The notes beneath the pieces were generated by a model. That model searched no databases. It saw only the letters and a list, made by a program, of their open reading frames with translations, and was not told the origin of the DNA. A program made the translations under genes and the position numbers. This document shows, piece by piece, positions 44,218 through 51,866 of a stretch of DNA of 64,000 bases (the stretch's first letter is position 1; every line of letters begins with the position of its first letter). The stretch lies in the NCBI RefSeq assembly GCF_902832845.1, contig NZ_CADFDB010000013.1, forward strand, positions 62,001 to 126,000. The letters run 5' to 3'. Source of the stretch: Burkholderia metallica (GTDB lineage Bacteria; Pseudomonadota; Gammaproteobacteria; Burkholderiales; Burkholderiaceae).

Positions 44218-44973
44218 TTACACCTTCCCCGCCAGATGAAACCGCGACGCCGGATGCCACAGCTGCACCGACGTCGCCACCTGCCCGCCCACCCACGTGC
44301 GCCGCCGCAGCAGCAGACACGGTTCGCCGATTTCCATCACGAGGTGCCGGCGCACCTGCGCATCGGGCTTCTGCGCGTAGATGCGGAACTCCGCGCGCTG
44401 GATCGGCGCGAGCCGCACCATGTAGTGGTTCGGCGTCTCGACCGTGAAATCCTGCTCGAGATAGGCGGGAAACAGCGCCGGATTGACGTAGCGATCCTCG
44501 AACTGGATCGGCTCGCCTTCCTCGCAATGCACGATGCGCGAATGAAACACCGGCCCCGTACGAAGCCCGAGCGCTTCGATCGCCTCGGGGTCGTCGCTGC
44601 GCTCGATCGTCAGCACGCGCGCCGTGTGCCGATGGCCGCGCTCGGCGATCTCGTCCGCGATATTGCGGATCTCGAGCACCGTCGATTCGTAATGACGGCG
44701 CTCGACGAAGGTACCCGCCCCCTGGATGCGGGTCAGCACGCGTTCGCTGGTCAGCTCGCGCAGCGCACGCGACACCGTCATCCGCGCCACGCCGAACTCC
44801 TTGACCAGCTCGGCTTCGGTCGGAATCGCGCTGCCGGGCTTCCAGTCGCCGTTCGCGATCCGGTCGACCACGTAGCGCTTGATCTGCTGGTACGCAGGCA
44901 GCGCACGCGCCGGCACGTCGTCGCCCGGTTCGCTGCCCGGCCGGGCAGCCGTGTATCGTCCCGCTTCGTTCAT
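44218..44973 (-). CDS. HutC/GntR family repressor of the lyase operon
   Basis: A 251-residue GntR regulator of the HutC branch: a winged helix-turn-helix (PAYQQIKRYVVDRIANGDWK, AELVKEFGVARMTVSRALRE) and a UTRA ligand domain (GHRHTARVLTIERSDDPEAI, FSRIVHCEEGEPIQFEDRYV, TSVQLWHPASRFHLAGKV). HutC proteins repress histidine utilisation and respond to urocanate. Here the ligand may be the lyase product. ATG 44973 behind GAGGG, 67 bases after the lyase stop. Confidence 0.88.
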   Translation of the reverse strand: MNEAGRYTAARPGSEPGDDVPARALPAYQQIKRYVVDRIANGDWKPGSAIPTEAELVKEFGVARMTVSRALRELTSERVLTRIQGAGTFVERRHYESTVLEIRNIADEIAERGHRHTARVLTIERSDDPEAIEALGLRTGPVFHSRIVHCEEGEPIQFEDRYVNPALFPAYLEQDFTVETPNHYMVRLAPIQRAEFRIYAQKPDAQVRRHLVMEIGEPCLLLRRRTWVGGQVATSVQLWHPASRFHLAGKV

Positions 44974-45040
44974 GCGCCCTCGATCGAATGAAGGTTGAAT
45001 GCAGATTGAATGACCTGCCGGCCGTCGCGTCGCCGATGCG

Positions 45041-46534
45041 TCACGCCAGCGACGGCGGTACACCCGCGACGATCGCGGCCGCGGTCGCGAAATCGTCCGC
45101 GAGCGGCCGGTCGTCGTGATACACCGGCACGCGTTCGCGCACGTAGCGCCACAGCGCATCGGTCGGCGCCGCCCGCGCCGCGCCGTTCTCCTGCAAATCG
45201 TACGCCTGCGCGGCGGCCAGCAACTCGATCGCGAGCACGCGCGTGGTGTTCTCGATGATGTCGAGCGTCTTCAGCGCGGCCGGCGTCGCATGGCACAGAT
45301 GATCTTCCTGCAAGCCCGACGTGATGCCGCCGTCGAGGCTCGCGGGCGCGGCAAGCCGCTGGTTCTGCGCGACCAGCGCGACCGCGGTGTACTGCGCGAT
45401 CATGAACCCCGAACACGTGCCGCCCGGCGCCGCAAGAAACGCCGGCAGCCCGCTCACGAGCGGATTGACGAGCCGGTCGAGCCGCCGCTCGGCAATCGCC
45501 GCGACCTGTGCCATCGCGGCCGCGAGGCTGTCCATCGCGAGCGCGATGCCCGCGCCGACCGCATGCGCCTGCGAATGGACGGCCGGCGCATCGGGCGTGC
45601 CCGCGACGATCGGATTGTCGGTAACGGACGCAAGCTCGCGGTCGACGACGTCCGCCGTGACCGCCAGCACGTCGCGCGCCGCGCCGTGCACGTGCGGAAT
45701 CGTGCGCAGGCTGAGCGGGTCCTGCGTATGCCGCCCGGTCGCCGCGGCGAGCATCGCGCTGTCGGCAAGCATCGCGCGCAGGCGCGCGCCGACATGCCCG
45801 ATGCCAGGCGAAATGCGCAGCGCCAGCGACGCCGGATCGAACGCGGCGAGCTGGCCGCCGAGATTCTCGAAGCTCGTCGCCGCGACCCAGTCGGCCCAGT
45901 CGAGCAAGCGCTCCGCACGCGCGAGCGCGAGCGCGGCGAGCCCCGTCACGCACGGCGTGCCGTTGACCAGGCTCAACCCTTCCTTCGCGCCGAGGACCAG
46001 CGGCTCGCGGCCGATGCGGCGCAAGGCTTCGTCGCCGCGCACGCGTTCGCCGCGATGACGCGCGTGGCCGTGCCCGATGCAGACGAGCGCGACGTGCGCC
46101 ATGTGCGTCAGGTAGCCGACCGAACCGTGCGCCGGCACTTCCGGCAGGCAATCGTGCTCGAGCAGCGCGACCAGCTGGTCGACGATGTCGGCGCGCACGC
46201 CCGAATGGCCGTGCGCATAGTTGTTGATCGCCGCCGCGATGATCGCGCGCGTCTCCGCCGCACCGAGCGGCGCGCCGACGCCGACCGCGTGGCTCATCAG
46301 GATGTTGCGCGACAGCGCGCCCTGCTGCGCCGGCGACACGATCACGTCGCACAACGCGCCGACGCCCGTGTTCACGCCGTACGCGCGGATGCCTTGCGCG
46401 ACGATCGCGTCGACGAGTTCGCGCGCCGCGACGACACGGCCGCGCGCGTCGTCGGTCAGCGCGAGCGGCGCGCCGGCCGCGACCGCTGCGATCTGCCGCC
46501 AGTCGAGCGGCCGTGCCGAACGGAAGACGGTCAT
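45041..46534 (-). CDS. Aromatic amino-acid lyase family protein lacking MIO (ergothionase-like)
   Basis: A 497-residue member of the histidine/phenylalanine ammonia-lyase family with YGVNTGVGAL, TQDPLSLRTIPHVHGAARD, SVTDNPIVAG and SGLQEDHLCH. The site that forms the MIO electrophile, normally GSVGASGDLAPLAHM, reads GSVGYLTHMAHV, so Ala-Ser-Gly is absent. A lyase without MIO cannot act on a free amine by the usual route. Known relatives without MIO are ergothionases, which eliminate trimethylamine from ergothioneine. ATG 46534 with GAGG. Confidence 0.8.
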   Translation of the reverse strand: MTVFRSARPLDWRQIAAVAAGAPLALTDDARGRVVAARELVDAIVAQGIRAYGVNTGVGALCDVIVSPAQQGALSRNILMSHAVGVGAPLGAAETRAIIAAAINNYAHGHSGVRADIVDQLVALLEHDCLPEVPAHGSVGYLTHMAHVALVCIGHGHARHRGERVRGDEALRRIGREPLVLGAKEGLSLVNGTPCVTGLAALALARAERLLDWADWVAATSFENLGGQLAAFDPASLALRISPGIGHVGARLRAMLADSAMLAAATGRHTQDPLSLRTIPHVHGAARDVLAVTADVVDRELASVTDNPIVAGTPDAPAVHSQAHAVGAGIALAMDSLAAAMAQVAAIAERRLDRLVNPLVSGLPAFLAAPGGTCSGFMIAQYTAVALVAQNQRLAAPASLDGGITSGLQEDHLCHATPAALKTLDIIENTTRVLAIELLAAAQAYDLQENGAARAAPTDALWRYVRERVPVYHDDRPLADDFATAAAIVAGVPPSLA

Positions 46535-46541
46535 GGCGGCC

Positions 46542-47333
46542 TCAGTTCGCGGCGCGGTCATGATGGCTCGACACAAACTGGCGGAAGCGCTCGGAACACT
46601 GGCCGCCGAACAGCTCGCCCGGTGTGCCGTCCGCATCGACCTCGCCTTGATGCAGGAACATCACGCGGTTCGACACGTGCCGCGCGAAGCCCATTTCGTG
46701 CGTGACGACCAGCATCGTGCGCCCTTCCTCCGCGAGCGAGCGCATCACGCGCAGCACCTCGCCGACCAGCTCCGGATCGAGCGCCGACGTCGGTTCGTCG
46801 AACAGCATCACCTTCGGATGCATCGCGAGCGCCCGCGCGATTGCGACGCGCTGCTGCTGGCCGCCGGACAGGTGGGCCGGGTAGTAGCCCCGCTTGTCCG
46901 CGAGGCCGACGCGCGCGAGCAGCGCCTCGGCCTCCTCGACCGCTTCCGCGCGACTGCGCTTCTGCACGCGCAGCGGGCCTTCGACGAGATTGTCGAGCAC
47001 GGTCATGTGCGACCACAGGTTGAAGTTCTGGAACACCATCCTGAGCTGCGAGCGGATGCGGTCGACCTGGCGCCGGTCGCCCGGATGCAGCTTGCCGTCG
47101 CGCGCGCGCTTCATCTTCAGTTCCTCGCCGGCGAGCGCGACGGTACCGTCGTCCGGTGTTTCGAGCAGGTTCAGGCAGCGCAGGAAGGTACTCTTGCCCG
47201 ATCCGCTCGCACCGAGGATCGAGATGACGTCGCCCTCGTGCGCGTCGAGCGAAATGCCCTTCAGCACGTGGTGATCGCCGAACGACTTGTGGATGTTCCT
47301 GACCGACAGGGCGACGGGAGCAGCGGTGTTCAT
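46542..47333 (-). CDS. Polar amino-acid ABC transporter ATPase (HisP/GlnQ-like)
   Basis: A 263-residue ATPase: Walker [10 protein letters not shown] (about 42-50), [16 protein letters not shown] (Q-loop), signature LSGGQQQR, Walker [10 protein letters not shown] and the switch His in [10 protein letters not shown]. The insertion [20 protein letters not shown] after Walker A is normal for the histidine/octopine branch. It powers uptake with the permease pair and binding protein encoded upstream. The stop is 8 bases from the lyase start. Confidence 0.93.
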
Positions 47334-47360: not shown

Positions 47361-48107
47361 TCAGGATGCGACGCGCCGGGCGGCGCTGGCATCGGCGGCG
47401 GGCGCGCCGGACGGCTTCGGCCCGCGCAGGTGGCCCGACAGCCGCCATTCGAGCGCACCGAGCACGCGTACGACGATGAAGTTCAGGCCGAGGTAGATGA
47501 GGGCCGCGCACACGAACACTTCGGTCGTCCGGTAGGTTTGCTGAATGATCTGCTGCGCGACACCCGTCACCTCCCACACCGTCACGAGGCTCGCGAGCGC
47601 GGTCGACTTGACCAGCAATACGGCTTCGGTCGAATACGCGGGCAGGCACTGGCGCAGCGCGATCGGGCCGATCACGCGGCGCAGCAGCGCGAAGCCCGAC
47701 AGGCCGATCGAATAGCCTGCCTCGATCTGCCCGACCGGCACGGCCATCAGCCCGCCGCGCAGGATCTCGGCCGTATAGCCGGCCGTACACAGCGCGAGCG
47801 AGAGCACCGCGCACACGTACGGCTCGCGCAGCAGCGGCCACATGAAGCTTTCGCGGATCACGCCGAACTGGCCGAGCCCGTAGTACACGAGAAACATCTG
47901 GATCAGCAGCGGCGAGCCGCGAAACACGAGGATGTACGCACGCGCGAAGCGGTTCGGCAGCCAGCGCGGCGACACGCGCATCGTGACGATCACGAGCGAC
48001 AGCAGGCCGCCGAGCACGAGCGATGCGAAGAACAGGCCGAGCGTGGTCGGCACCGCCGCGAGCAACTGGCGCAGCGTGTCGAACAGGAAATCGAAATCGA
48101 GTGACAT
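47361..48107 (-). CDS. Polar amino-acid ABC transporter permease (HisM-like)
   Basis: A 248-residue membrane permease of the HAAT family. It has about five helices and the EAA loop near residue 165: QIEAGYSIGLSGFALLRRV ending IGPIALRQCLPAY. Starts MSLDFDFLFDTLRQLLAAVP. Together with the HisQ-like partner it forms the heteromeric channel. It lies 27 bases upstream of the ATPase gene and has a poorly conserved Ala/Pro-rich tail. Confidence 0.92.
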   Translation of the reverse strand: MSLDFDFLFDTLRQLLAAVPTTLGLFFASLVLGGLLSLVIVTMRVSPRWLPNRFARAYILVFRGSPLLIQMFLVYYGLGQFGVIRESFMWPLLREPYVCAVLSLALCTAGYTAEILRGGLMAVPVGQIEAGYSIGLSGFALLRRVIGPIALRQCLPAYSTEAVLLVKSTALASLVTVWEVTGVAQQIIQQTYRTTEVFVCAALIYLGLNFIVVRVLGALEWRLSGHLRGPKPSGAPAADASAARRVAS

Positions 48108-48117
48108 GTGCGCTCCG

Positions 48118-48840
48118 TCAGTTGCGTGCGAAGTTGCGGCGGAACGACCGGCCGACGATCGCTTCAGCCCGGTTGAACACGCGATTCGACAGCCCCGTCA
48201 TGACCAGGTAGAGCGCGCCGCCCGCGACGAAGAACACGAAATACTGATGGGTCGAGTTCGCCGCGATCTGGCTCGTGCGCAACAGCTCGGCGAGCCCGGT
48301 GACCGAGATCAGCGCCGAATCCTTCAGGCTCAACTGCCACACGTTGCCGATGCCGGGCAACGCGAAGCGCAGCACCTGCGGAATCAGGATGCGGCGCAGG
48401 ACCATGCCGCGCGGCATGCCGATCGAGCGCGCCGCTTCGAGCTCGCCCTTCGACACCGCGAGCACGGCCGCCCGATACACCTCGGCCTGGTACGCGCCGG
48501 AAATCATCCCCACCGCGAGCGCGCCGATCACGAACGGCGGCACACCGATGAAGCCTTCCGCGCCGAACCACTGGCCGACGGCCGTGACGAGCGTCGAGCC
48601 GCCGAAATAGAACAGGTAGATGACGAGCAGTTCGGGCACGCCGCGAAACACCGTCGTGTACAGGTCGCCGAGCAGGCGGGCGCTGCGGTAGCGCGACAGT
48701 TTCGCGGCCGCGATCGCCGCGCCGATCACGGCGCCGACCGCCAGCGCGGCAAGCGTCAGCGCGACCGTCATCAGCGCGGCGAGCAGCAGCACGCCGCCCC
48801 AGCCTTCGGTTCCGAAGCCCAGCATTTCAAGGATCGCCAT
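48118..48840 (-). CDS. Polar amino-acid ABC transporter permease (HisQ-like)
   Basis: A 240-residue partner permease. N-terminal helix MTVALTLAALAVGAVIGAAI, the region RGVPELLVIYLFYFGGSTLV, and the EAA-type loop ELEAARSIGMPRGMVLRRIL then PQVLRFALPGIGN. The two permease genes are 10 bases apart, consistent with one transcript. Upstream, the binding-protein gene ends 92 bases away. Confidence 0.92.
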   Translation of the reverse strand: MAILEMLGFGTEGWGGVLLLAALMTVALTLAALAVGAVIGAAIAAAKLSRYRSARLLGDLYTTVFRGVPELLVIYLFYFGGSTLVTAVGQWFGAEGFIGVPPFVIGALAVGMISGAYQAEVYRAAVLAVSKGELEAARSIGMPRGMVLRRILIPQVLRFALPGIGNVWQLSLKDSALISVTGLAELLRTSQIAANSTHQYFVFFVAGGALYLVMTGLSNRVFNRAEAIVGRSFRRNFARN

Positions 48841-48932: not shown

Positions 48933-49793
48933 TTACGGCGTGACGTCGGTCTTGAACCACTTGTCGGCGAGCTTCTTCACGGTGCCGTCCGCGAGAGCGG
49001 CGCCGATCGCCGAATCGAACTTCGTCTTCAGGTCGGCATCCTGCTTGCGGAACGCGAGGCCTTCACCGGGCCCCCAGATCGGGCCGCCGAGCTTCGGGCC
49101 GGCGAGCACGATCGACGCGTTGTCCTTCTTCGCGTTGTTCGCCGCGTAGTACGTGACGTCGTCGAACGATGCGTCGATGCGGCCGGCGACGAGGTCGAGG
49201 TCGCGCTCGGGCGACGTCTTGTACACGCGGATCGACGCGATGTCCTTGAAGCTGTCGTTGATGAACTTCGTGTAGACGGTGCCCGACTGGATGCCGATCG
49301 TCTTGCCCTTCAGCTGCTTGCGCAGCGCATCGACGGTGGGCTTGTCGGCATTCGCGTCGCCCGACAGCTTGACGATCGGCGCGCCCGGCGCCGCCTTCGG
49401 CAGAATCTTCGTGTCGGTGACCGCGAACGTCGCGGGCGTGGCCGCATACGGACGCGAGAACAGCAGGATCTTCTCGCGCTCCGGCGTGATCGAGATCGCA
49501 TCCATCAGGACATCGAACTTGCCGGCCTGCAGCCCCGGGATCATCCCGTCCCAGTCCTGCGCGACCATGTTGCACTGCACCTTGATGCGCTCGCACACGT
49601 TGGCGAGCAGTTCGGGCTCGAAGCCGCCGAGCTTGCCGCCCGGCAGCGTGAGGTTCCACGGCGCGTAGCCGCCTTCGAGCGCCACCGTCACGGTCTTCCA
49701 CTCCTTCGCTTGCACCGGCGCCGAAAGCGTGGCCGCTGCCGCCGCGATGATGCCGATCGTCCTGACTGCCCACTTGATGTGCTTGCCGTTCAC
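48933..49793 (-). CDS. Periplasmic solute-binding protein of the lyase-linked ABC transporter
   Basis: A 286-residue family 3 extracellular solute-binding protein with a signal peptide (AVRTIGIIAAAAATLSAPVQ then A-KEW) and the typical VTVALEGGYAPWNLTLPGGK, GFEPELLANVCERIKVQCNM, WDGMIPGLQAGKFDVLMDAI and ISITPEREKILLFSRPY. The GTG start at 49793 has AAGGAG seven bases upstream. Earlier ATGs lack a site. The acidic and aromatic pocket residues fit a cationic amino-acid-like ligand, possibly ergothioneine or a betaine, not provable here. Confidence 0.9.
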   Translation of the reverse strand: MNGKHIKWAVRTIGIIAAAAATLSAPVQAKEWKTVTVALEGGYAPWNLTLPGGKLGGFEPELLANVCERIKVQCNMVAQDWDGMIPGLQAGKFDVLMDAISITPEREKILLFSRPYAATPATFAVTDTKILPKAAPGAPIVKLSGDANADKPTVDALRKQLKGKTIGIQSGTVYTKFINDSFKDIASIRVYKTSPERDLDLVAGRIDASFDDVTYYAANNAKKDNASIVLAGPKLGGPIWGPGEGLAFRKQDADLKTKFDSAIGAALADGTVKKLADKWFKTDVTP

Positions 49794-49853
49794 GAGAGTT
49801 CTCCTTGCGTTGAAGATCGTCATCCCCTCGGACATGCAAGCCGCCTCAGGAAT

Positions 49854-49866
49854 TTGTCTATACAAG
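49854..49866. promoter_or_regulatory. Candidate HutC-type operator TTGTCTATACAAG
   Basis: TTGTCTATACAA matches the palindrome TTGTCTAGACAA in 11 of 12 positions, the kind of site used by HutC/YvoA-family GntR repressors (core TCTAGA). It lies 60 bases upstream of the binding-protein GTG start. Confidence 0.45.
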
Positions 49867-50016
49867 CATGCAAGAAGAAAAACGCAGCGACAAGCGTTGA
49901 TCAAAAAAAACCGGGAAAACGCGGGAAATCCCCTAATTACGCGGCTCCGGCGTGCCTCTCTGCGGTGATTCGCAGCACGAATATGGTGCATTCCGTACGA
50001 TCTTTCGATCAGAATG

Positions 50017-50026
50017 ACTAGACAAA
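50017..50026. promoter_or_regulatory. Second TTGTCTAG-type half operator
   Basis: On the minus strand TTGTCTAGTC; extended by two bases it is TTGTCTAGTCAT, a 10/12 match to TTGTCTAGACAA. About 160 bases upstream of the first site, in the same 321-base region. Two repeats of a rare word beside a HutC-like operon support regulation. Confidence 0.35.
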
Positions 50027-50114
50027 TTTCCGATTCGACCGCTTCGCTAAACACACCGTCATCGGCCACGCTTTCCGAGCGCCCCGCGACCGCCCCTCCC
50101 GCCTGCTCACGCGA

Positions 50115-51248
50115 TCACCACGCGGCAAACACGTCCTGCGCGATCCCGAAGCCCGTGCTCATGCCGGCGCCGCTCGTCACGACGACGACGCGCGTGGCGT
50201 CGTCCGGCGCGTCGATCACGCAATCGGCATCGGCTGCCGACGGATAGCTGCCGGTCCAGCGTTCGATCACGTCCAGTTCCGGCACGTCGAGCGTCTCGTG
50301 CAGCAGGCGCAGGATCTGCGCATCGATTGCCTGCGCCGCGAACGGCAGCGGTGCGGCGCCGTATTCGTGCGAATCGCCGACCACGAGACTGCCGTCCGCG
50401 CTCTGCACCGCGATCAGATGAATGCCGTGACCGACGCACACGGGCTCCTCCGCATTCAGGCGCGCGCGCAACGCGCCGGCGTCGGGCAACGCCGCGAAGC
50501 CCGAATAACGCAGCAGGCTCAGGTCGCTCATCACCGCGGCGCGCAGCGCCAGCGGGCGACGCGGCCGCACGCGCAGCATCTGCAACTGGCAGAGCCGTAC
50601 TGCATGCCGCGCGAACCAGTCGCCGTACAGGTGGCGGCTGTCCGCATTGCCGCAGACGATCACGCGCTCCGCATGCAGCACGCCGCGCGACGTCCGCACG
50701 GACGGCGTGCGGACTTCATGCACCATCTCGCCGTAGCGAAACCGCACCCCGAAACGTTCCGCGAGCCACGACGCCAGCAACGCGATCGCGGTGCGCGGCT
50801 CGATGCGCAGCTCATGCGGGCTGTGCAGGACGCCGTGCGCACCGTCCAGCTGCAGTTCCGGCGCGACGGCTGCCGCGTCGCCGGACGTCATGACCCGGCA
50901 GCCGTCGGCCATGCCGGTTTGCATGAACGCGTCGAGCACGCTCATCGCCTCGGGGCGACGCGCGATCAGATGCAGGCCCCGGTGAAGCACGTCGATTCCG
51001 GCTTGCGGCGCGATGTCAGCCCAGACTTCGCGGCTCCCGCGCGCCCGGCGCCAGCTGTGTTCGGCGCGCTGCCCGGTGACGGTGACGAAGCCGAAATTGC
51101 GGATCGACGCGCCCGTGCATGCGGCATCGCGCTCGATCACGCAGACGCGCAGCCCCTTGAGCGCCGCCGTATAGGCATGAGCGAGGCCGACGATGCCGGC
51201 GCCGACGACGATCACGTCATGAGAATCTGCCGCTGCGATGGCGTTCAC
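50115..51248 (-). CDS. FAD-dependent oxidoreductase, glycine-oxidase-like (TIGR03364-type)
   Basis: A 377-residue flavoprotein of the D-amino-acid/glycine oxidase fold. The dinucleotide fold is VIVVGAGIVGLAHAYTAALK (residues 12-31), then RVCVIERDA, GASIRNFGFVTVTGQ, and the C-terminal ERWTGSYPSAADADCVID and SGAGMSTGFGIAQDV. The NFGFVTVTG segment fits the TIGR03364 group, whose known members act on phosphonate or N-methyl amines. GTG start at 51248 with AAGGAA upstream. Its role in the lyase operon is unknown. It may oxidise a released amine or a modified amino acid. Confidence 0.82.
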   Translation of the reverse strand: MNAIAAADSHDVIVVGAGIVGLAHAYTAALKGLRVCVIERDAACTGASIRNFGFVTVTGQRAEHSWRRARGSREVWADIAPQAGIDVLHRGLHLIARRPEAMSVLDAFMQTGMADGCRVMTSGDAAAVAPELQLDGAHGVLHSPHELRIEPRTAIALLASWLAERFGVRFRYGEMVHEVRTPSVRTSRGVLHAERVIVCGNADSRHLYGDWFARHAVRLCQLQMLRVRPRRPLALRAAVMSDLSLLRYSGFAALPDAGALRARLNAEEPVCVGHGIHLIAVQSADGSLVVGDSHEYGAAPLPFAAQAIDAQILRLLHETLDVPELDVIERWTGSYPSAADADCVIDAPDDATRVVVVTSGAGMSTGFGIAQDVFAAW

Positions 51249-51866
51249 GATTGGATGTTCCTTCTGTGCGGATGACACGCGCCCCGCCGCCGGGAGCGAA
51301 CGCTTCGGTTGCCGCTCGCCGTCTCCGATGGACGGCTCCCCGGGAGTGGGGCGAACGGGCCGGCTTGCGCCGGTCGATGCCGGGACCGGTGCCCGTTCCG
51401 CACTATCGCTACGCGAAATGACATCCGGATGAAAAGCCACAAAACAGCATGAATTGGCATATTTTGCCATTACATCGGAGAGCATCGGATCGCGCGGAAA
51501 ATCCGCGTCGCCCTGCCCGTGCCGCGCATTCGCATACGCGGCCTCTCCGGATCGGTCGTTCCGTGCGCATCGATGCAGTACACGTCACGCGCAAGATTGT
51601 GCGGATGTGCGGCGGCCGCCGCGGGACGCGGCACCGGCGCCAAACCGACGTCGACGCCCTCGTGTTCTGCGGCGGCACTCGCGTTCGCGTGCGCGCAGAC
51701 CCTGCCATGGATGCCCGTCGGCCACACCGCACTGCACGTCGTGCTCCATCGGGACAAGAACTGCACCCGGCGGCAAAACGTCACCTGAAACAGATCGGTA
51801 AAGTGGCGAGCGGCTATTTGTAATGCTTCACGGCCGCCCCTAAAAAAACCGATTCAGGAGACATGA
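51249..51866. other. Intergenic region upstream of FAD oxidoreductase and GH3 genes
   Basis: About 620 bases with divergent promoters. It contains TGGCA-N5-TGCCA at 51455-51469 as a perfect dyad. No gene is supported. The TTTGTAATGC at about 51819 is AT-rich near the GH3 start. Confidence 0.4.
51455..51469. promoter_or_regulatory. Perfect dyad TGGCA-N5-TGCCA upstream of FAD oxidoreductase gene
   Basis: TGGCA at 51455-51459 and TGCCA at 51465-51469, about 207 bases before the GTG start at 51248 on the minus strand. It resembles a regulator site. The spacing is two bases too short for a sigma54 promoter. Confidence 0.3.

Follow-up and report, generated by a model that had tools for sequence, protein, structure and literature searches.

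What reaction can a lyase of the histidine ammonia-lyase (HAL) family catalyze, if it lacks the Ala-Ser-Gly triad of the methylidene-imidazolone (MIO) cofactor? This question is raised by a gene in a stretch of 64,000 nucleotides from Burkholderia metallica (contig NZ_CADFDB010000013.1, positions 62,001 to 126,000; the whole stretch is called the window here), which lies in a cluster with an ATP-binding cassette (ABC) transporter and a HutC-like repressor. The comparisons described below make it very likely that the enzyme is a hercynine trimethylamine-lyase, which would convert hercynine (N-alpha,N-alpha,N-alpha-trimethyl-L-histidine) to trans-urocanate and trimethylamine without the MIO cofactor. 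Substrate, product and catalytic roles are what we infer, starting from features that can be seen directly, namely the missing triad, the clade, the residue pattern, the gene cluster, the hut-operon context in relatives and a common operator sequence.

With an E-value of 9e-148 for Pfam Lyase_aromatic, the window lyase is a full-length member of the HAL family, and the plus-strand frame at the same coordinates is an open frame antisense to the real gene. An earlier note on this DNA had described the HAL-fold motifs YGVNTGVGAL, SVTDNPIVAG and QEDH and, in place of the segment containing the triad, the sequence GSVGYLTHMA; all of this was confirmed, and the protein is indeed a HAL-fold lyase without the MIO triad. 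In an alignment with HutH and the ergothionase group, the segment GSVG-ASG-DLAPLAH of HutH is opposed to GSVG-YLTHMAH in the window lyase, which means that exactly Ala-Ser-Gly is deleted, and the equivalent of HutH Tyr53 is kept. Among the 129 rows of the clade to which the lyase belongs (clade A; 121 distinct rows, as some genomes were fetched twice), GSxGY[LI] occupies this position in 128 and ASG in none. The exception (L059) is a partial copy, the translated frame of which lacks the motif. The ASG triad is present in all 36 HutH-type rows, which comprise HutH and another MIO-containing group. Since the absence holds across the clade A rows, the missing triad is no sequencing accident.

The equivalents of HutH Tyr53, His83, Asn195, Gln277, Arg283 and Glu414, which we take to be active-site residues, with Glu414 as the one that binds the imidazole, are kept in all 29 clade A rows compared. 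In the same rows Tyr280 of HutH is always replaced by Leu and Phe329 by either Ala (15) or Pro (14), and Tyr141, His144 and Tyr382, which correspond to Ala, Pro and Val in HutH, are fixed in clade A. The HutH residue numbering was carried over by alignment, and the P. putida mutants Y280F, F329A and D145A are listed as deposited structures. The role of MIO is to activate a primary amine; trimethylamine needs no such help to leave, a logic known for ergothionase. In the proposed mechanism, Glu410 (HutH Glu414) would hold the imidazole side chain of hercynine, Arg277 (HutH Arg283) would hold the carboxylate and Tyr52 (HutH Tyr53) would remove the beta proton; no electrophile would be required, because trimethylamine leaves readily by itself. 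The loss of the triad together with the changes at Tyr280 and Phe329 may make space for the trimethylammonium group. Overall, the lyase resembles HutH in its fold, in the listed active-site equivalents, in the predicted product urocanate and in the HutC-type control, but it differs in the absence of Ala-Ser-Gly, Tyr280 and Phe329, shares only about 40% identity with HutH, and belongs to a clade paired with opine- or betaine-type transporters.

A trimethylamine-lyase with HAL fold and without MIO is already known in the form of ergothionase (PMC13405746). The earlier note had regarded the gene as a probable ergothionase, forming thiourocanate and trimethylamine from ergothioneine, or else as an enzyme for a related trimethylammonium substrate. 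The latter option is supported by the context in relatives, which fits urocanate as product, and by betaine-type transporters in other lineages, whereas ergothionase activity is now unlikely. The window lyase does have in common with the ergothionases of T. denticola (6s7j/6s7q) and Burkholderia sp. HME13 the HAL fold, the lack of MIO, a trimethylamine leaving group (predicted for the window lyase) and a Leu at the position of HutH Tyr280. However, a sequence search, named beforehand as the test of this reading, placed it nearer to HutH (7tqr, 282 bits; P. putida HutH, 257-260 bits) than to the T. denticola ergothionase 6s7j (171 bits). In a tree of 64 rows, clade A (29 rows, support 99), HutH (15 rows, support 99) and the ergothionase group (9 rows, support 100) form separate groups; the tree was computed with a quick method, with long-branch warnings at several joins, and represents 6s7j by its nearest relatives from the Burkholderia family.

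The ergothionases of the Burkholderia family are encoded beside thiourocanate hydratase and not beside hut genes. The NCBIfam model of this hydratase (NF058530) was passed by 24 of 398 family genomes, and a HAL-family gene was present near the hydratase gene in 17 of the 20 fetched loci (all but L115-L117). These lyases have the segment GS[IL]GEADITILSH and not the three-residue deletion, are 29-31% identical to the window lyase, and one of them, when used as query, had 6s7j as its sole structure match at E ≤ 1e-60 (269 bits). Moreover, eight of the nine ergothionase-group rows have a Lys in the column of Tyr382, presumably the catalytic Lys384 of 6s7j, whereas all 29 clade A rows have Tyr. 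No match to HutI, HutF or HutG and no HutU besides the thiourocanate hydratase were found in the fetched stretches of the 17 ergothionase loci. Two genomes (G366 and G376) carry a MIO-type HutH, a clade A lyase beside HutU on one contig and an ergothionase beside thiourocanate hydratase on another. Some ergothionases may take hercynine as a side substrate.

The own genome of the window (7.55 Mb, 37 contigs) has two HAL-family members, the window lyase and a MIO-type HutH on contig 5 (L001, L072). The latter belongs to an operon-like run HutH-HutC-HutU-HutI-HutF-HutG, which contains the genome's one urocanase, HutU. Nothing in this genome scored above the NF058530 cut-off for thiourocanate hydratase. 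It does contain EgtD, the histidine methyltransferase that forms hercynine (L286, G000:C11:246868-247782; 418 bits against a cut-off of 290.9), and because of this it probably makes hercynine itself.

The genome context in relatives points to urocanate and not to thiourocanate as the product. In the family sample (27 loci: the window and L034-L059), HutU follows the lyase in four loci (L050, L052, L053 and L054), and the same was found in L271 and L272. The lyase heads a run HutU-HutI-HutF-HutG in L052, L054, L271 and L272, while in L050 it is followed by HutC and then by the same four genes, and in L053 by HutC and HutU only. The complete order in L054 is substrate-binding protein (SBP), ABC genes, lyase, HutU-HutI-HutF-HutG, with HutI, HutF and HutG confirmed by NCBIfam, and no HutH was found there within the 20 kb fetched. 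The hydratases of L050, L052, L053 and L054 are urocanate hydratases (TIGR01228, 940-973 bits), and they stay below the cut-offs for thiourocanate hydratase (658-691 vs 930) and S-methyl-thiourocanate hydratase (678-707 vs 880). In three Caballeronia-like genomes (G009, G047 and G139) the HutU adjacent to the lyase is the only urocanase, the MIO-type HutH being encoded on another contig, and a fourth genome (G078) has two HutU genes, one beside HutH and one beside the clade A lyase. Among 80 named loci (L120-L199), hut enzymes are near the lyase only in Caballeronia catudaia (L189) and C. arvi (L188), which share the same arrangement. Outside the own family, HutU, HutI, HutF or HutG lie within 9 kb in 17 of 20 fetched loci and HutH as well in 14, and the nine loci of family f15 have the lyase in a hut locus.

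The window itself contains a putative regulatory link to histidine utilization. The palindrome TTGTCTATACAA is the only one of its kind in the 64 kb, did not occur in 100 shuffles, and ends 30 bp before the chosen start of the SBP gene. Its core TGTCTAGACA is found twice before hutH of the own genome. Genome-wide, the pattern TTGTNTANACA gave 14 rows corresponding to eight places, against 4 rows for a reversed control pattern. Two of these places are before hutH, one is at the window cluster, one (C9:293660) before a permease of PF02133, to which the gene at the HutTu position of L259 also belongs, and one (C9:334523) before a ProY-like permease; the other three (C13:50827, C7:101116 and C4:330533) lie at genes for which no connection to hut is evident. 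The operator core is present no more than 700 bp 5' of the SBP match in 24 of 28 clusters of the family, in 73 of 80 named ones and in two of six outside. In L268, an operator-like palindrome (CTGTATATACAG) stands directly before the lyase, although no hut enzyme is nearby. According to PMC8871633, HutC acts as a repressor when urocanate is absent, and urocanate can induce the first hut enzymes. A HutC control that is released by urocanate would suit an enzyme that forms this compound: the urocanate formed from hercynine would be degraded by HutU-HutI-HutF-HutG and would at the same time release the HutC repressor. As the cluster lies apart from the hut enzymes in the window and in most Burkholderia and Paraburkholderia loci compared, its link to hut is drawn in these cases from orthology, from the HutC-like gene and from the operator.

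While the lyase is constant, the neighboring transporter varies. Of the 27 family-sample loci, 26 have ABC genes and an SBP close to the lyase (all but the partial copy L059), and so do all 80 named loci; a HutC-like repressor is close by in 23 and 77 loci, respectively. The transporter is of the polar-amino-acid or opine type in the Burkholderiaceae loci and in six outside loci. Ten outside loci have a glycine-betaine type with an OpuAC binding protein, joined by a ProV-type ATPase in Pseudomonas-like and two alphaproteobacteria-like loci (PF04069 was confirmed in L251, L252 and L259, the other OpuAC assignments were made by similarity), and two loci (L269 and L270) have a betaine/carnitine/choline transporter (BCCT) beside the lyase. 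On the clade A tree with 27 labelled rows, this amounts to at least three changes of transporter type. The simplest substrate that is a betaine of histidine and yields urocanate is hercynine, which would be imported by the adjacent ABC transporter with its opine-type binding protein in the case of the window, and by betaine-type ABC transporters or BCCT in other lineages. It is improbable that the MIO-free lyase acts on another N-substituted histidine, such as N,N-dimethylhistidine or a histidine opine, to give urocanate. In favor of this reading, the hut context fixes only the product, and the solved structures nearest to the SBP are nopaline- and octopine-binding proteins (206-212 bits), followed by 8hqr ('ABC transporter', 144 bits), LAO-binding (about 103 bits) and histidine-binding proteins (99 bits); opines are N-substituted amino acids. 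However, on chemical grounds secondary and tertiary amines should leave poorly without MIO, and the glycine-betaine-type ABC transporters and BCCT of the other lineages favor a quaternary ammonium compound.

Lyases of clade A may already be known under another name. In P. fluorescens SBW25 the gene order is hutU-hutTu-hutXWV-hutH1-hutH, and hutH1 has been called a histidase, although it is dispensable for growth on histidine (PMC8871633). The locus L259 has the order HutU, PF02133 permease, OpuAC binding protein, permease, ProV-like ATPase, lyase, HutH, HutI, HutG. As this corresponds to the order described for P. fluorescens, and as the lyases between HutXWV-type genes and HutH fall into the same clade as the window lyase (29 rows, support 99), we identify clade A with Pseudomonas HutH1, an assignment based on gene order and tree and not on the SBW25 sequence itself. 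The window differs from the HutH1-HutXWV arrangement in its polar-amino-acid/opine-type transporter, its own HutC and the position of the cluster apart from the hut enzymes. The designation as histidase, the location in hut operons and one orthologue above a histidine ammonia-lyase cut-off could be explained by an isoenzyme that deaminates histidine without MIO, or by a regulatory or inactive paralogue. This is very unlikely, since the triad is deleted throughout the clade while the catalytic Tyr, His, Asn, Gln, Arg and Glu stay, each of the 12 genomes searched encodes, in addition, a HAL-family protein that contains the MIO triad and scores like HutH, and hutH1 is dispensable on histidine in SBW25; the strong conservation also speaks against an inactive protein.

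The histidine ammonia-lyase models of NCBI do not separate the two functions cleanly, if clade A lyases act on hercynine. The window lyase is below both cut-offs (442.8 vs 539.15 for TIGR01225 and 458.9 vs 524 for NF006871). The orthologue in L259 passes that of NF006871 (550.8) but not that of TIGR01225 (536.4), and a BCCT-linked orthologue is narrowly under the NF006871 cut-off (515). Therefore, trimethylamine-producing enzymes may be filed as histidases.

Several points weigh against hercynine as the substrate. Hut enzyme genes are not adjacent in the window or in most of the loci from Burkholderia and Paraburkholderia that were compared (near in four of 27 family-sample and two of 80 named loci), and none is nearby in three of the 20 outside loci (L254, L256 and L268), two of which (L256 and L268) also have no recognized transporter in the fetched locus. 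The operator was missing in four of 28 cases in the family, in seven of 80 named loci and in four of six clusters outside. The hut adjacency elsewhere could be a relic inherited from an old hutH duplication; the linkage of lyase and HutU in an altered layout and the transporter changes speak against this. Thiourocanate hydratase co-occurs with the lyase in at least five of 37 family genomes (G013, G032, G063, G183 and G187), and three of 20 outside-family genomes carry it on contigs other than that of the lyase. The two genes are nevertheless not coupled, since each occurs without the other in family genomes, thiourocanate hydratase being present without a clade A lyase in G168, G174 and G199. 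HutXWV, which is encoded beside hutH1 in P. fluorescens, has a reported role in the uptake of histidine (PMC8871633). According to PMC12772324, a deletion of PA5093, named hutG there, causes growth defects on both histidine and urocanate. Should PA5093 belong to clade A, this result conflicts with our proposal or reflects a problem of labelling or polarity. We assume that PA5093 is the HAL-family gene of its P. aeruginosa hut operon. Finally, the own genome may produce hercynine as well as degrade it, and the role of the lyase could instead be to limit an internal hercynine pool.

A reading in which the hut adjacency is only left over from the past and an unrelated betaine such as hypaphorine or tyrosine betaine is the substrate would suit the many Burkholderia and Paraburkholderia clusters apart from hut enzyme genes, but it is extremely improbable in view of the HutC-like repressor in the cluster, the HutC-type operator common to cluster and hutH, the presumed imidazole-binding Glu kept in 29 of 29 rows, and the direct linkage of the lyase to the only HutU of Caballeronia-like genomes.

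Hercynine cleavage by clade A lyases would have consequences beyond this locus. Of 200 family genomes, 37 have full-length orthologues (≥702 bits, ≥70% identity) and two more have partial copies (G189, and G179 in two pieces), and the next-best family matches drop to less than 300 bits and about 40% identity. The orthologue of Paraburkholderia xenovorans LB400 (L148) shares 77% identity with the window lyase. In a profile search of 398 Pseudomonadota genomes, 23 had clade A at E ≤ 1e-125, including three from the own family. It is likely that the lyases form a widespread betaine branch of histidine utilization, in which a dedicated MIO-free hercynine lyase module is combined with swappable importers of the opine, betaine or BCCT type under HutC control. 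A literature search, with thin cover of subscription journals, found no dedicated hercynine enzyme. If the proposal is true, there is a lineage of MIO-free trimethylamine-lyases outside the ergothionases, Pseudomonas HutH1, the 'second histidase' dispensable on histidine, obtains an enzymatic function and a substrate, and hercynine, the precursor of ergothioneine, has a catabolic route that feeds ordinary histidine breakdown. It would also be a bacterial source of trimethylamine that current models can label as histidase, and it would allow elimination with and without MIO to be compared on nearly the same substrate within one fold.

The genes of the cluster lie on one strand, the transporter genes being followed by the lyase and then by the HutC-like repressor.

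Table 1. Features of the lyase cluster, with positions in the window.
Feature	Position	Strand	Remarks
HutC-like GntR/UTRA repressor	44218..44973	minus	TIGR02018, 284 bits (cut-off 220); start codon chosen within the longer ORF 44218-45159
MIO-free HAL-family lyase (P0002), 497 aa	45041..46534	minus	ATG at 46534, stop at 45041; predicted hercynine trimethylamine-lyase; orthologue of Pseudomonas HutH1 by tree and gene order
ABC transporter ATPase, polar-amino-acid type (HisP-like)	46542..47333	minus	7 bp from the lyase
ABC transporter permease (HisM/ArtM-like)	47361..48107	minus	library match and conserved neighborhood
ABC transporter permease (HisQ-like)	48118..48840	minus	library match and conserved neighborhood
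Periplasmic SBP, opine-type	48933..49823	minus	start codon chosen within ORF 48933-50069
Palindromic HutC-type operator TTGTCTATACAA	49854..49865		before the transporter-lyase-repressor operon; putative HutC binding site

Apart from clade A, the comparison revealed further unusual HAL-family lyases. A second MIO-free group of four Burkholderiaceae sequences (group B; L060:7932-9455, L061:5147-6703, L062:8163-9710 and L066:8016-9533) stands beside clade A in the tree, with a support of 92, which is below the starred level, and with a long-branch warning at this join. These proteins have the segment GSVGYL[AG]PEAHMAL, are encoded near a binding protein that is 57-67% identical to the SBP of the window, and in L060 near a GcvA-like LysR regulator; the lyase of L060 is above the NF006871 cut-off (542 vs 524). 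No match to HutI, HutF or HutG and no HutU were found in the fetched stretches of the four group B loci or of the seven loci of group D, another MIO-containing subfamily. A lyase with the segment GSVGAADLVL (L119:7341-8864), encoded beside a gene of the S-methyl-thiourocanate-hydratase type (present in one of 398 family genomes), groups with the ergothionases on a long branch. A distant ergothionase-like lyase (L269:5009-6544; segment GSLGAADLAQL, 32% identical to a Burkholderia-family ergothionase) is found in the same hut locus as a clade A lyase and the BCCT transporter.

Upstream of the transporter operon of the window, at 50115-51485 on the minus strand, a TIGR03364-type FAD oxidoreductase is encoded (467 bits, cut-off 285), for which no counterpart was found among the 40 relative loci compared. 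In five Paraburkholderia-like loci (L039-L042 and L044), a second cluster adjoins the lyase cluster in opposite orientation. It encodes another HutC-like regulator (40-45%), an ATPase, two permeases and a binding protein that is 24-26% identical, and in L039 these are followed by a 2OG-Fe(II) oxygenase and an FAD-linked oxidase.
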